NCBI RefSeq assembly: GCF_008039615.1
Contig: NZ_VDUZ01000020.1
Coordinates: 1-64,000 of the forward strand
Source of the DNA: Vineibacter terrae
GTDB taxonomy: Bacteria; Pseudomonadota; Alphaproteobacteria; Reyranellales; Reyranellaceae
Reading direction: 5' to 3'
Length of the DNA: 64,000 nt
Part shown: piece by piece, positions 51,086 to 55,800 of the stretch
Layout: each line of letters begins with the position of its first letter
How positions within the stretch are numbered: the first letter of the stretch is position 1
The notes under the pieces: model-generated
What the model was told of the DNA's origin: nothing
Database searches by the model: none
Seen by the model: only the letters and a program-made list of their open reading frames with translations
Position numbers and translations under genes: made by a program

Positions 51086-51252
51086 GAGGCACCGTACAGA
51101 CCCTGCCGGTTGCGCGCTACCGCGCGCGCTCGCGACCGCGCCTGGCGCCGGCGATCACGTATGTGATGAATCCGGGGCGCTGCTCGTAGCGCCGTGCGCG
51201 ATGCACTATCGTCGAGTCGATGGCGACTTGGCCAGTGACACGGGAGACATTC

Positions 51253-52530
51253 ATGTCCGCGCATCCGGCTCGAACATCTGAGCATCTTGCGACTCTGTGT
51301 GCTGCCGACGGGGAGTTCCGTCTCGCCGCCCGCTTCTGGAACGGCGGCATGCGGCTGCGCATGGGCGGGACGCTGCTCGGCATGACGCTTGCCAACGGCA
51401 TGCCGCGCGCTGCCGATCCCGACCAGGACGCGGCAGGCGTGATCGGCCTCGCCGCGCCGCAGCAGACGTGGGACGCGCTGCTGGCGGCTACACCGCCGCG
51501 CTTCGGCAATGACATCGCACCCCTGGTCATGGCGGGCCAGATGGCGCTAGAGGGCGACCCGGTCGTGTATGCGCAATACTACCCGGCGGTGATGCGCGCC
51601 ATTGAGCTGCTGCGGCCCCCGGCGCCGTCGCAAGCGATGCCGCCGCCGGCTGCTGCCGGCCGCTTCGACAGTCCGGTCGGGCGTTACATCCACCTGCAGC
51701 TCGACGGCATGGACCACCGCGTCTACTTCGAGGAGGCAGGCGCCGGCATCCCGCTCCTGCTGCAGCATACGGCCGGCTGTCACGGCTCGCAGTGGCGCCA
51801 CCTGTTCGAGCGGCCCGAGGTCACCGATCACTTCCGGCTCATCGCCTACGACCTGCCGTTCCACGGCAAGTCGCTGCCGCCCGTCGGCCCCAAATGGTGG
51901 GCAACCGAGTACCGCCTGACAGCCGCGTTTCTGCGCGCCGTGCCGGTCACGCTGGCGTCGGCTCTCAAGCTCGATCGTCCCGTCTTCATGGGGTGCTCGG
52001 TCGGCGGCCTTCTGGCGCTGGACCTGGCGCGGCATCACCCCGACGTGTTCCGCGCCGTGATCGCGGTGGAAGGCGCCTTGAAGGTCGACGCCGACGTCGA
52101 GGCGCTCAGCGCGCTGTGGCATCCGCAGGTCAGCAACGAGTACAAGGCGCGCATGATGGACTCGCTGATGAGTCCGACGTCGCCCGAGGCCTACCGCAAG
52201 GAAACCAGCCACGTCTATGCGGCCGGGTGGCCGCCGGCCTTCCTCGGGGATCTGCACTACTACCTGGTCGACTATGACCTGCGTGCCGAGGCGGCGAGCA
52301 TCGATACCGGCCGGACCGCCGTGCACATCCTCAACGGCGAATACGACTGGAGCGGCTCGATGGAGCATGGCCAGGCCGCGCATGCGGCGATCGCTGGATC
52401 GACATGGACGGGGATGCAAGGCGTCGGACATTTCCCGATGTCGGAGAACCCCGACGCCTTCGTGCGCCATCTGTTGCCCATCCTCGAAGCCATCAAGGCG
52501 CGCCCAGTACCGGCTATCGGTGGAAGGTGA
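51253..52530 (+). CDS. SCP2-like domain fused to alpha/beta hydrolase
   Basis: A 425-residue protein. Residues about 5-120 (EFRLAARFWNGGMRLRMGG, PLVMAGQMALEGDPVVYAQY) look like an SCP2/sterol-carrier-type lipid-binding fold. From about 145 an alpha/beta hydrolase follows: LLLQHTAGCHGSQWRHLFE, YDLPFHGKSLPP, nucleophile elbow MGCSVGGLL (Ser near 248), acid in ILNGEYDWSG and His in GVGHFPMSENP (about 396-406). This suggests a hydrolase for a hydrophobic ester or thioester. ATG 51253 follows GGGAGA. No signal peptide. Confidence 0.85.
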   Translation: MSAHPARTSEHLATLCAADGEFRLAARFWNGGMRLRMGGTLLGMTLANGMPRAADPDQDAAGVIGLAAPQQTWDALLAATPPRFGNDIAPLVMAGQMALEGDPVVYAQYYPAVMRAIELLRPPAPSQAMPPPAAAGRFDSPVGRYIHLQLDGMDHRVYFEEAGAGIPLLLQHTAGCHGSQWRHLFERPEVTDHFRLIAYDLPFHGKSLPPVGPKWWATEYRLTAAFLRAVPVTLASALKLDRPVFMGCSVGGLLALDLARHHPDVFRAVIAVEGALKVDADVEALSALWHPQVSNEYKARMMDSLMSPTSPEAYRKETSHVYAAGWPPAFLGDLHYYLVDYDLRAEAASIDTGRTAVHILNGEYDWSGSMEHGQAAHAAIAGSTWTGMQGVGHFPMSENPDAFVRHLLPILEAIKARPVPAIGGR

Positions 52531-52540
52531 GTCGCGACTG

Positions 52541-52624
52541 TCATCCCGAGCGTAGCGAGGGATCTCCTGCGAGTGGCGCACTGTGCTTCCCACGCGGGAG
52601 ATCCCTCGCTGCGCTCGGGATGAC
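52541..52624. repeat. TCATCCCGAGCG-family inverted repeat (copy 4)
   Basis: Same arms as 2551-2635, located 10 bases after the hydrolase stop; probably the terminator of that gene. Confidence 0.9.
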
Positions 52625-52976
52625 GGATGTATCAGCGACCTGCGGTTCCCCGCGCTAGCATCAGCTATCGGTAGAACGTGTCTGTGCATCGACCGGCTCG
52701 GGTCGGGCGACCTGCGGTTCGGCGAGCGGGAGCGGGCGCGACGGCGGCCGTGATGTCCCGTCGGCGCGTGCCGTGCGCGTCCATGCGCAGCGGATTCCGG
52801 CGGTCAGCCCTGCGCGCGGGTTGCTTGACCTCGACGGCGATGGTCAGATCATGGTGGATTGAAGATCCGGGGCTGCCCGGCTGCGCCGCGGGCGACGTGC
52901 GGGCGGGGCCTCGTCGCAGATCGCCGACGGCGGGCGCGCCGCGGCGGAGGGATTGAAGGCAAGCCAGGAGGTGCTC
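52625..52976. other. Leader region of the selenoprotein-gene unit, no gene seen
   Basis: About 350 bases with a short Arg-rich frame that lacks a ribosome site and family character. The AGGAGG site (52965-52970) for the following gene is at its end. Confidence 0.5.
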
Positions 52977-53495
52977 ATGCGCATCGTCAATCCGACATTC
53001 GGCGTGTCCGCAGCGGGCGGCGAGGCCGTCGCCGTCAAGCCGGTCGACTGGCGCACCGATGCGGTCGCCATGTTCTCGAACTCCAAGCCCAATGCGCGCG
53101 AGCTGCTGGAAGGCATCCGCGCCCGGCTGGCCGATATCCGCAGCGTCGACAATATCGAGTTCGTGCATAAGAACAGCGCCAGCCAGCCGGCGCCGGCCGA
53201 GCTGATCGACGCGGTCGCCGGCAAGTACAAGGGTGCCCTCCTGGCGATAGCCGATTGAGGGTCCTGCTCATCGTGGAGTTTCCACGACTTCGTTGAATTG
53301 CAGAAGCGCGGCGTGGCGGCCTACGTGATCGCCACCGAGACATTCCGTCCGCTGGTGCTGGCCCAGGCCAAGGCCCGCAAGATCGAGCCGCGTCTGATCG
53401 TGGTGAAGCACCCGATCGGCGGGCTGAACGCACAGGAGCTGGCCGAGCGCATCGCCACCGCGACGGCCGGTCTGACCGAAGCCACAAGCCTGTGA
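52977..53495 (+). CDS. Predicted selenoprotein, UGSC family (in-frame TGA = Sec94)
   Basis: A 172-residue protein read through one TGA codon. The 93 codons before it (MRIVNPTFGVSAAGGEAVAV onwards) and the 78 after it are in one frame. TGA at 53256-53258 occupies the U of U-G-S-C (then GSCSSWSFHDFVEL), the defining motif of the UGSC selenoprotein/Cys-homologue family. A perfect hairpin at 53271-53287 fits bacterial SECIS geometry. The downstream part (RGVAAYVIATETFRPLV, RLIVVKHPIGGLNAQEL) is conserved-looking and free of other stops, arguing against a decayed gene. Start: AGGAGG then ATG. It would be a redox-active protein needing SelB/SelC, which must be elsewhere. First gene of a three-gene unit. 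Alternative: a nonsense mutation of a Cys homologue. Confidence 0.85.
53271..53287 (+). promoter_or_regulatory. Bacterial SECIS-like stem-loop
   Basis: Seven-base perfect stem TCGTGGA/TCCACGA with apical loop GTT (53278-53280), whose first base is G. The loop begins 20 nt after the last base of the TGA, inside the 16-37 nt window known for bacterial SECIS elements. It lies within the coding frame, as expected for bacteria. Confidence 0.75.
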
Positions 53496-53560: not shown

Positions 53561-53597
53561 AGACGCATCCACAGCGATGAATCCGCGGAACCTTGAC

Positions 53598-54638
53598 ATG
53601 ACCGATACGCCCGAGACCGAGCTGCTCGACATTCCCGACGGCGATGGCGAAGCCTGGAACGAGTATGCGCTGAAGCAGGGCTGGGGCGACGGCATGCCGC
53701 TGGCCGTCCCGACCGAGGCTGCGGTCGAGAAGTTCGTCGCGGTCTGCCGCGGCGACAACCAGCCGTTCGCGCCGATATCGCCACGCCAGGTGGTGCCGAC
53801 GCTCAAGAGCCTGGCCGCCAACGCGGTGATGGCGGGCTGCAAGCCGGAATACCTTCCGGTCGTGCTGGCCGCGCTGCGCGCCGTGCTGACGCCCGACTAC
53901 AACCTGCACGGCACGCTGGCGACCACCCATCCCTGCGCGCCGATGCTGCTGGTGAGCGGCCCGATCCGCAAGGCGCTGGACATCAACTGCTCCAGCAACT
54001 GCTTCGGGCAGGGCTGGCGCGCCAACGCCACGATCGGCCGCGCCCTGCAGCTGATCCTGCTCAATGTCGGCGGCGCGCGGCCGGGCGAGATGGACCGCGC
54101 CACGCACGGCTCGCCGGCGAAGTACGCCTATTGCTTCGGCGAGAACGAGGAGGAGAGCCCGTGGACTCCGTACCATGTGCGCCGCGGCTTCGCGACGGGC
54201 GACAGCGTGGTGACGGCGATGGCGGGCGAGGCGCCGCACAACATCAACGACCACGGCAGCACGTCGGGCGACGGCATCATGACCACGATCGAGAACACGA
54301 TCGCGCAGTCGGGCGCCAACACGATCTACGGCAAGGGGCCCTATGTCGTGGTGCTGGGCCCCGAACATGCCGGCACGCTGCATCGCGACGGCTGGACCAT
54401 CGAGAGCATGCGCGACCGCCTGTTCGAGCAGGCGCGCGTGCACGTCTCGCGCGTGTCGAAGGAGAACCAGCAGAGCTACGCCGAAGCCGGTCACGTGCCG
54501 GTGAACGACCACTACAAGATCGCGCCGACCCCCGACGACATCCACATCCTGGTCGCGGGCGGTCCCGGCAAGCATTCGGCCTGGATCCCGTCCTTCGGCG
54601 GCACGGCGGTGCCATCGGTGCGGGTCGCCGGCGGTTGA
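53598..54638 (+). CDS. Uncharacterised protein, UGSC-unit paralogue 1
   Basis: A 346-residue protein that I cannot assign to a characterised family. Features shared with the next gene: GWGDGMPLAVPT (about 28-39), LPVVLAALRAVLTPDYNLHG (about 82-101), NCSSNCFGQGWRANATIGRA (about 129-148), NVGGARPGEMD, YCFGENEE and C-terminal DDIHILVAGGPGKHSAW. The extra Cys residues in THPCAP and NCSSNC could form a redox or metal site. No signal peptide or membrane span. The start at 53598 aligns with the paralogue's MTDE start; ATG 53577 is an alternative without a better ribosome site. Its position suggests it works with the selenoprotein. Confidence 0.8.
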   Translation: MTDTPETELLDIPDGDGEAWNEYALKQGWGDGMPLAVPTEAAVEKFVAVCRGDNQPFAPISPRQVVPTLKSLAANAVMAGCKPEYLPVVLAALRAVLTPDYNLHGTLATTHPCAPMLLVSGPIRKALDINCSSNCFGQGWRANATIGRALQLILLNVGGARPGEMDRATHGSPAKYAYCFGENEEESPWTPYHVRRGFATGDSVVTAMAGEAPHNINDHGSTSGDGIMTTIENTIAQSGANTIYGKGPYVVVLGPEHAGTLHRDGWTIESMRDRLFEQARVHVSRVSKENQQSYAEAGHVPVNDHYKIAPTPDDIHILVAGGPGKHSAWIPSFGGTAVPSVRVAGG

Positions 54639-54674: not shown

Positions 54675-55631
54675 GTGACCGACGAACTGCCGCTGTTCGA
54701 GGAGTCGGCGCCGTGGGACGCGGCGCAGGCGGCGCTGGAGGAGCAGGGCCTGGGCGATGGCCTGCCGCTGGTGATCCCCACGCGCCGCCGGCTCGAGGCC
54801 ATGCTGGCCGGTATCGACGAGCCTGAGCGAAGCCTCGGGCAGATGCCGCCGCTATTCGGCGAGCTCACCCCGGCGGCCGTGGCCTACAGCTGCGTGCTGG
54901 CCGGCGCGCGGCCGGCCGAGCTGCCGGTGGTGCTGGCCGCTGCCGCGGCGTGCCTCGAGCCGGACTTCAACCTGCTGGGCGTCCTCACCACCACCGGCAC
55001 GACCGCCGTTGCCGTCCTCGTGCACGGACCGATCGCGCGCCGGCTCGGCATCAATGCCGGCACGAACTGCCTCGGACCGGGCAACCGCGCCAATGCCGCG
55101 ATCGGCCGTGCCTTGGCGCTGATGCTGCGCAATGTCGGCGGTGCCCGGCCGGAGATCGGCGACATGGCCACGATGGGCCAGCCAGGCAAGTACACGTTCT
55201 GCTTTGCCGAGAACGACGATGCGATCGTGCCGGCGCTGCCGGTGCGCCGCGGCTTCGCGGCCGACGGCGACGCGGTGACTGTGCTGGGCGTGTCGGGGAC
55301 GGCGGAAGTGCTGCCCTCCGGCGACGGCGCCTCACCCGAGGCGATCCTGCAGCCGGTGGCGACGGCAATGCACGCCGCGATCACCGTATCGGGCGCGGCA
55401 CGCAAGCCGACGCGCGGCGAGCAGGTGCTGCTGCTGCCGCCCGAACTGGCGCGGCTGATCACCCGCCACGGCTGGGACCTGGCGGCGATGCAGCGCTACC
55501 TGTTCGCCGCGCACCCGGTGGCGCGTGCGCCTGAGGACATCCATGTGATCGTCACCGGCGGTCCGGGCATCAAGATGACCTACCTGCCGCTATGGGCCGG
55601 CGGCACGCGCACGACGACACGCCTCGTGTGA
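54675..55631 (+). CDS. Uncharacterised protein, UGSC-unit paralogue 2
   Basis: A 318-residue paralogue of the preceding gene, starting at GTG 54675 (ACGGAG upstream). Equivalent motifs: GLGDGLPLVIPT (about 25-36), LPVVLAAAAACLEPDFNLLG, GTNCLGPGNRANAAIGRALA (about 125-144), NVGGARPEIGD, FCFAENDD and DIHVIVTGGPGIKMTYLPLW. It keeps the central NC and FCF cysteines but not the first THPCAP Cys. The two proteins may form a heteromer or act sequentially. The function is unknown. Confidence 0.8.
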   Translation: MTDELPLFEESAPWDAAQAALEEQGLGDGLPLVIPTRRRLEAMLAGIDEPERSLGQMPPLFGELTPAAVAYSCVLAGARPAELPVVLAAAAACLEPDFNLLGVLTTTGTTAVAVLVHGPIARRLGINAGTNCLGPGNRANAAIGRALALMLRNVGGARPEIGDMATMGQPGKYTFCFAENDDAIVPALPVRRGFAADGDAVTVLGVSGTAEVLPSGDGASPEAILQPVATAMHAAITVSGAARKPTRGEQVLLLPPELARLITRHGWDLAAMQRYLFAAHPVARAPEDIHVIVTGGPGIKMTYLPLWAGGTRTTTRLV

Positions 55632-55672
55632 TCGCGCGTTTGGCTCGTAGAGTGGCATCCCGAAAGTGTGTG

Positions 55673-55800
55673 TCATCCCGAGCGCAGCGAGGGATCTCCC
55701 GCGAATGGCACACCGTGCGCCTTGCCGCAGGAGATCCCTCGCTGCGCTCGGGATGACAGCCATATGATTGCCCTCGCTGCGCTTGAGATGACAGCCATAT
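55673..55800. repeat. TCATCCCGAGCG-family repeat (copy 5) with a degenerate tail
   Basis: Full copy at 55673-55757 followed by a partial, decayed half (CCCTCGCTGCGCTTGAGATG) to about 55800, with CATATGA on both sides of the partial half. This looks like repeat insertion beside or into an older copy. Confidence 0.85.

Follow-up and report, generated by a model that had tools for sequence, protein, structure and literature searches.

A UGSC-family selenoprotein gene of Vineibacter terrae and its adjoining partner family point to a possible, little-explored selenium enzyme akin to the glycine and proline reductases

The window analysed here, a stretch of 64,000 nucleotides from Vineibacter terrae, carries at 52977-53495 a selenoprotein gene that is a further member of the already known UGSC family, with two genes of an unnamed partner family downstream of it. 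Taken overall, the observations are probably best explained by a two-component selenoenzyme that is related to the reductase proteins GrdB and PrdB and uses a thioredoxin-type reductant; it would be a relative of the glycine and proline reductases that has so far received little study. The selenoprotein had been predicted from the letters alone in a first-pass annotation; the unnamed partner family directly downstream and the relation to GrdB/PrdB were not part of it. The features of the locus are as follows.

51220..52530, + strand: alpha/beta-hydrolase gene, upstream of the UGSC gene (context)
52966..52971, + strand: Shine-Dalgarno sequence AGGAGG, 5 nt 5' of the ATG (from the sequence)
52977..53495, + strand: UGSC-family selenoprotein gene, 172 aa, Sec94, U-G-S-C motif with Cys97
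53256..53258, + strand: in-frame TGA, codon 94 of the UGSC gene, read as selenocysteine (Sec94)
53271..53287, + strand: bSECIS hairpin, 7-bp stem 53271-53277/53281-53287 (codons 99-104), loop GTT 53278-53280
53577..54638, + strand: partner A, 353 aa, in no Pfam or NCBIfam family (AF2 pLDDT 92.9)
54675..55631, + strand: partner B, 318 aa, a paralogue of A (37% identical)

Mechanical ORF calling ends the UGSC gene at the TGA and returns a 101-aa ORF from an upstream TTG. Translation of 52977-53495 gave 172 residues and a terminal TGA stop, the sole internal TGA being codon 94, after which the frame runs on through GSC and a 78-codon tail without stops, just as the first-pass annotation had described it. 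Its assignment of the protein to the UGSC family, with Sec at the motif and Cys in some homologues, was likewise borne out: with Sec94 read as Cys the protein matched PF24696 (UGSC) at 112.7 bits against a cut-off of 25 (residues 3-164 on 2-164 of 172), the motif reads U94-G-S-C97, and three Cys forms were found. Positions 94, 95 and 97 were invariant in 69 aligned UGSC sequences, TGA being written as C. The score against NF041046 (UGSC_fam) was 104.4 bits, below the curated cut-off of 125, and the protein is filed under the Pfam family PF24696 alone, since the naming rule of NF041046 does not extend to it. The paralogues C68 and C41 of the same genome scored 95.9 and 41.8 bits against that cut-off; with all three scores below it, annotation may therefore leave such selenoproteins unnamed or truncated. 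The window protein resembles the PF24696/NF041046 family in its near whole-length profile match, in having U-G-S-C at the active position, in being a small single domain and in the occurrence of Cys forms elsewhere in the family, whereas it differs in falling under the naming cut-off and in having two partner copies at its locus. UGSC genes are rare across the phylum at large (7 of 397 genomes). In the available portion of the Global Ocean Sampling (GOS) paper the family stands fifth by sequence count in the table of selenoprotein families (PMC2398784), and the available portion of a 2026 review places it among the bioinformatically found families whose functions are largely uncharacterised (PMC13188914).

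The first-pass annotation had named the absence of selB/selC, a variable TGA position among homologues and a read error turning TGC or TGT into TGA as grounds against selenocysteine, and none of the three withstood the comparison. The genome (8.76 Mb) contains all four of selA (575 bits), selB (431 bits), selD (269 bits) and selC, the tRNA-Sec (75.3 bits, anticodon tca; ARAGORN: tRNA-SeC tca), all above their cut-offs, with selA, selB and tRNA-Sec on one contig within 5 kb. It has four UGSC genes, each with one in-frame TGA. A search of 146 related genomes found a UGSC homologue in 77, with the in-frame TGA in every match among those listed; the 30 loci it delivered, locus L029 being the window's own gene, made up a 30-gene alignment in which the window gene and all 29 orthologues have TGA at the site. 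The site is invariable among these close relatives, and a read error is excluded because TGA recurs in the 29 orthologues and in every match listed from the search. At position 94 the relatives have Sec (TGA) and three distant homologues have Cys. Median pN/pS against the window gene was similar before (0.36) and after (0.31) the TGA in 29 comparisons; purifying selection acts on either side of it.

Among 127 UGSC gene copies the codon at the site was TGA in 121, TAG in three, TGC in two and TGT in one. This count scored solely these four codons before G[SGA]C, includes some genes twice (the same genomes reached by two routes; 108 distinct 48-mers) and leaves out 19 of 146 motif candidates that had no UGSC profile match. 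The TAG codons belong to Blastococcus (L118:4732) and Geodermatophilus (L120:4738 and L121:4747). UAG-decoded UGSC selenoproteins of the Geodermatophilaceae were reportedly described by Mukai et al. in 2016. These proteins are homologous to the window protein and have the same hairpin and the same Sec position, but their codon is TAG where that of the window gene is TGA; their decoding by UAG is already published, according to the available portion of the source (PMC5330540). Cys occupies the site in two haloarchaea (L166, L175) and a Binatia MAG (L165). One further locus (L168), outside the 127-copy count, has two UGSC-like genes that depart from the exact motif (GHUGSS, GDCGTS).

A hairpin with 7 bp and the loop GTT had been placed 19-20 nt downstream of the TGA in the first-pass annotation. 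Stem and loop were found as described; the distance is correct for the apical loop (19 nt) but not for the start of the stem, which lies 12 nt from the TGA. The bSECIS model, as given in the available portion of the review, has a loop of 3-9 nt with G in the first two positions, a stem of 4-16 bp, a UGA-to-loop distance of 16-37 nt and an MFE <= -7.5 (PMC13188914). With its 3-nt loop GTT, 7 bp, 19 nt and -9.0 kcal/mol the window hairpin agrees with this model, including the distance and the G at the loop start on which the first prediction had relied. In the 30 aligned genes, synonymous codon identity (9-codon stretches) peaked at 0.967 over the hairpin, at codons 98-106, and held at 0.79-0.94 from there to about codon 121; elsewhere it was mostly 0.4-0.7, with a second rise, to as much as 0.84, around codons 56-72. 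In a set of 105 distinct Sec sequences, standard pairs filled 698 of the 735 stem-pair cells, against 628 +/- 4.7 in 1000 shuffles that ignore kinship, none of which reached 698, and at most 361 of 735 when the stem partners were slid by 1-3. Fewer than six of the seven pairs formed in this register in seven of the 105, and five of these seven are U-G-S-C-x-P-A-V genes (C41 type) with a different stem. Stem pair 21-27 was G-C in 73 and C-G in 30 of the 105, a double-sided change. Its two bases are, in the window gene, the third positions of codon 100 (W) and codon 102 (F); the paralogues C4 and C68, where the pair is C-G, have C and M, or C and L, as residues 100 and 102. Because the switching pair joins the third bases of these two codons, the hairpin appears to couple residues 100 and 102.

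Folding energy was rejected as SECIS evidence: its z was 0.16 for a 60-mer and -0.85 for a 45-mer, and when the 24-nt core was recoded at random with synonymous codons 5000 times, 16% of the versions folded equally well. The three Cys homologues also fold hairpins (-9.7 to -11.0 kcal/mol, 5- or 7-nt loops). Loop position 23 was G in 99 and position 24 was T in 100 of the 105 Sec sequences, where the Cys homologues have GC, GC and CG; it is GT at the loop that separates the Sec hairpins from those of the Cys homologues. Rfam at its gathering threshold gave no match in the window, a null that says little, as to our knowledge it holds no general bSECIS family. With the sel machinery present in the genome and the TGA kept in every one of the 29 orthologues, decoding of the UGA at 53256 as selenocysteine, via the hairpin and the genome's own SelA/B/C/D machinery, is almost certain, and we regard Sec94, as first predicted, as established by comparison, not by chemistry. 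That the TGA instead simply acts as a stop, or arose by sequencing error or as a lesion in a pseudogene, with a tail open by chance, is vanishingly improbable: Cys members do exist, a single base change makes TGC or TGT into TGA, and the hairpin's folding energy is unexceptional, but such an event would hardly leave TGA in all 29 orthologues and in each of the genome's four UGSC genes, purifying selection before and after it, TAG in the Geodermatophilaceae and a complete sel machinery.

Partners A and B had no Pfam or NCBIfam match at E 0.001, and when 82 members of the partner family were scanned singly against both collections at E 0.1 just scattered weak matches appeared, each in one or two members. 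Each of the genome's three further UGSC genes is adjoined by homologues of the partner, and all six partner genes detected in the genome lie inside its four UGSC loci. In loci chosen for UGSC, which included 20 orthologue and 20 paralogue loci hand-picked from the 146-genome search, a partner gene was present in 44 of 44, on the same strand and within a few hundred bases. In the reverse selection, which took the best 80 of 583 loci found in named records by the partner, a UGSC match lay within 1500 b on the same strand in 74 of 80, with a median gap of 127 b. Six loci depart from this. In two of them the partner gene begins within 150 b of the edge of its contig; in one the UGSC gene is 2024 b distant; and in the other three the available sequence, which in one case ends 0.2 kb past the partner, contains no UGSC gene. 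At the level of genomes, the partner occurred in 77 of 77 with UGSC and in 5 of 69 others (Fisher p 5.8e-36, kinship ignored); UGSC was sought by single-sequence search at 1e-10 and the partner by profile search at 1e-20, so that with this unequal sensitivity UGSC may be under-counted. The linkage of UGSC and partner is near-obligate. Partner genes without UGSC were seen at L117, L124 and L173, beside ORFs that by eye are PanE-like, polysaccharide deacetylase-like and amidohydrolase-like; because these have no UGSC gene in the available sequence, the partner may sometimes work alone.

Three arrangements were distinguished: class I, to which the window belongs, is UGSC-A-B; class II is partner-UGSC; and in class III, represented by C41 of this genome, UGSC and partner are fused in one reading frame and accompanied by a second partner gene. 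A fusion of UGSC with a domain called 'Unknown_1' is mentioned in the available portion of the GOS paper (PMC2398784), and this may be the same domain as the partner. In the part of the UGSC literature that was covered there is no UGSC-partner pair beyond this GOS fusion and no description of the wider UGSC-partner system; Haft and Tolstoy 2025 and Haft and Gwadz 2023 may describe the partner. Among the best 80 of 583 partner records the closest is from Rhodospirillaceae bacterium SYSU D60007 (85% identity), followed by alphaproteobacterial MAGs, several of them named Reyranella. In the 20 plasmid records listed the partner is annotated 'hypothetical protein' in 14 and unannotated in six, and four plasmid records have it ('hypothetical protein') beside a 'UGSC family (seleno)protein'; a search for the partner in phages gave no match. 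From the linkage and the fusion, which are observed, we infer that UGSC is very probably the small Sec subunit of a complex with the two downstream partner proteins.

A relationship to GrdB and PrdB was indicated when 69 UGSC members were compared singly with NCBIfam at E up to 10. TIGR01917 (GrdB) was matched by 36 of them (best E 1.9e-6), TIGR01918 by 12, GrdF by 11, GrdH by six and PrdB by five, and outside the UGSC and GrdB/PrdB models no family was matched by more than two of the 69; the window protein itself matched no GrdB/PrdB model at E up to 10. Of ten members examined singly, five matched TIGR01917 (E 4e-4 to 0.06), and the stretches matched lay within positions 326-428 of 431. In three GrdB-like genes, taken from a Rokubacteria MAG and an Entotheonella genome, the sequence is U-G-[TS]-C-N-R-C. 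When the UGSC alignment was compared by hhalign with these three together with 17 PrdB-like sequences, the result was 86% probability (E 5e-6) with Sec placed on Sec, and the score of 49.7 compares with at most 18.5 in 40 column shuffles. GrdB alone gave 16% (24% trimmed) and PrdB-like sequences alone 16%, each scoring higher than every one of its shuffles (40 and 20); against the combined set, the 19 window-type rows alone gave 6% and the other 50 rows 65%. HMMER with the UGSC profile found no match in the GrdB/PrdB-like loci. On the TIGR01917 matches and the combined hhalign alignment, the partial alignments being weak, homology of the UGSC family to the Sec-bearing C-terminal domain of GrdB/PrdB is moderately supported, and for the window-type members alone it is weakly indicated. 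The PrdB-like set comprised 17 of 30 PF07355 loci in which TGA is followed by PxC in a continuing frame, 13 being left out for a mismatch of frame or strand or for want of PxC after the TGA. One of the 17 is a PrdB/GrdB-like gene of this same genome (L217:2397-2460, contig C49 near 58,900), whose frame passes TGA to read U-P-F-C-T-R; it is a predicted second kind of selenoprotein in the genome.

UGSC and GrdB/PrdB are alike in the Sec-bearing C-terminal domain, in which U-G-[ST]-C (in GrdB) leads into a helix and an E-x-x-G-[IV] stretch, and in the thioredoxin-type reductant genes that lie near some UGSC loci. According to the available portion of the review, Trx reduces glycine reductase and PrdB is homologous to GrdB (PMC13188914). 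They differ in size, UGSC having 172 aa against 431 positions in TIGR01917, well short of a full-length GrdB (~430 aa); in setting, UGSC being found in alphaproteobacteria, actinobacteria and haloarchaea that are presumed aerobic; and in the second component, since the partner is unrecognisable as GrdE by sequence. PF09338, the GrdE-type pyruvoyl subunit, matched none of 82 partner members at E 0.1, and hhalign of the partner against four GrdE-like stop-to-stop frames, a weak test given their extra N-terminal residues, gave 0.4% and a score below 3 of 20 shuffles. The partner against GrdB gave nothing by hhalign.

A gene for a TrxR-like flavoprotein was located near UGSC in 19 of 20 class I relatives, 0 of 20 class II loci and 18 of 80 named loci, and also beside the fused C41 pair of this genome; at the window locus there was no TrxR-like match within 64 kb. 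CxxC was present in 10 of 10 TrxR-like ORFs inspected, and TIGR01292 was the best family for the three TrxR-like proteins compared with NCBIfam, at 179-216 bits, under its cut-off of 343. In Arthrobacter annotated trxB and trxA genes lie beside the pair, in Roseovarius trxB does, and in Variovorax trxB is near the partner and an unnamed small protein. Other neighbours were tallied by Pfam over 192 of 278 ORFs, 86 being left out by hand; TctC was found in 20 members and no single enzyme that would fix the substrate. TctC receptors, CoA transferases, enoyl-CoA hydratases and an amidohydrolase occur in some loci, and the neighbours together suggest catabolism of organic acids or related compounds, none of them fixing the substrate.

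The AF2 model of UGSC (pLDDT 91.3) is an alternating alpha/beta domain with five strands, in which the third strand (86-92) leads to Sec94 and on to a helix at 95-110 with Cys97 in its first turn. Its top PDB matches were generic flavodoxin-, FtsZ- and TIR-like folds, a designed protein having the best VIA Z (10.7; 125 residues, 3.1 A), and no thioredoxin-fold entry stood in the 50 best rows of either list for this model. The model does not look like the thioredoxin-like fold suggested for UGSC in 2008, as stated in the available portion of the GOS paper (PMC2398784). This bears on the possibility that UGSC has a thioredoxin-like fold and serves many partners as a general thiol oxidoreductase, the neighbouring family being just one client. 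The UxxC motif would fit such a role, but the predicted five-strand fold and its flavodoxin-, FtsZ- and TIR-like matches, the resemblance to GrdB/PrdB and a partner that is near-obligate and once fused in this genome make it rather improbable.

For the AF2 model of the partner, PDB matches reached neither E 0.001 nor a VIA Z of 8, and this lack of a confident match is no proof of a new fold. No match below E 0.25 came from sequence searches of the PDB, whether with partner profiles, with the UGSC profile or with P0001. Foldseek gave weak matches, at best E 2.7e-3, with cyclic amide hydrolases and class I fumarase, the fumarase superposition having a VIA Z of ~4.5 over ~200 residues at 5-6 A; these, together with encapsulin and chorismate-mutase-like matches, were not used to assign function. 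If they were nevertheless given weight, alongside the TctC, CoA-transferase and enoyl-CoA hydratase genes in the loci, the pair need not be a reductase: the main catalysis, such as that of a lyase or isomerase, could lie with the partner, and Sec could act as nucleophile or metal ligand. The cluster site of class I fumarase requires three Cys, and the partner has just two near-invariant Cys (C88, C186), which are therefore too few for it; the TrxR-like genes, moreover, point to redox turnover. Besides these two Cys, the conserved residues of the partner include D38, T117, R155, D173 and E189. We consider this reading unlikely, if the least so of the alternatives.

For the preferred reading, a two-component selenoenzyme related to GrdB/PrdB, we infer a mechanism that is put forward tentatively, at somewhat less than even confidence. 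Partner A/B would bind and activate a small organic substrate; the selenolate of Sec94, at the helix N-terminus, would reduce this substrate or break a C-X bond in it; one turn further along, Cys97 would resolve the intermediate as a selenenylsulfide; and an NAD(P)H-TrxR-type donor, often encoded close by at loci of the window's type, would re-reduce it. Sec94 and the pairing come from comparison, and the complex, the direction of the chemistry and the substrate are our interpretation of them. Together, the partner, the fusion, the CxxC flavoprotein of many class I loci and the link to GrdB/PrdB replace 'function unknown' by a concrete proposal that is open to testing, Trx/TrxR-dependent reductive chemistry of UGSC and its partner. 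A still broader formulation, which we regard as evenly poised, is that UGSC and partner form a hitherto undescribed two-component selenoenzyme and a second branch of the glycine/proline-reductase superfamily, lacking a recognisable GrdE subunit and present in presumably aerobic bacteria and, with Cys, in haloarchaea; that its paralogues, of which there are four sets here, serve different catabolic substrates; and that the co-change of W100/F102 with C/L is forced by the SECIS hairpin.

Two observations on copy number and gene borders were made in passing. A Chloroflexi MAG has three tandem UGSC-partner pairs at L167:2305-7690, all with TGA, and on another contig (L151:1325-6601) three UGSC genes, again all with TGA; these tandem copies represent a local amplification. 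In the window, palindromic repeats of the GTCATCCCGAGCG...AGCGAGGGATC type at 52538-52624 and 55671-55758, with arms that are 86-97% complementary, flank the UGSC-A-B block and are perhaps dispersed intergenic repeats.
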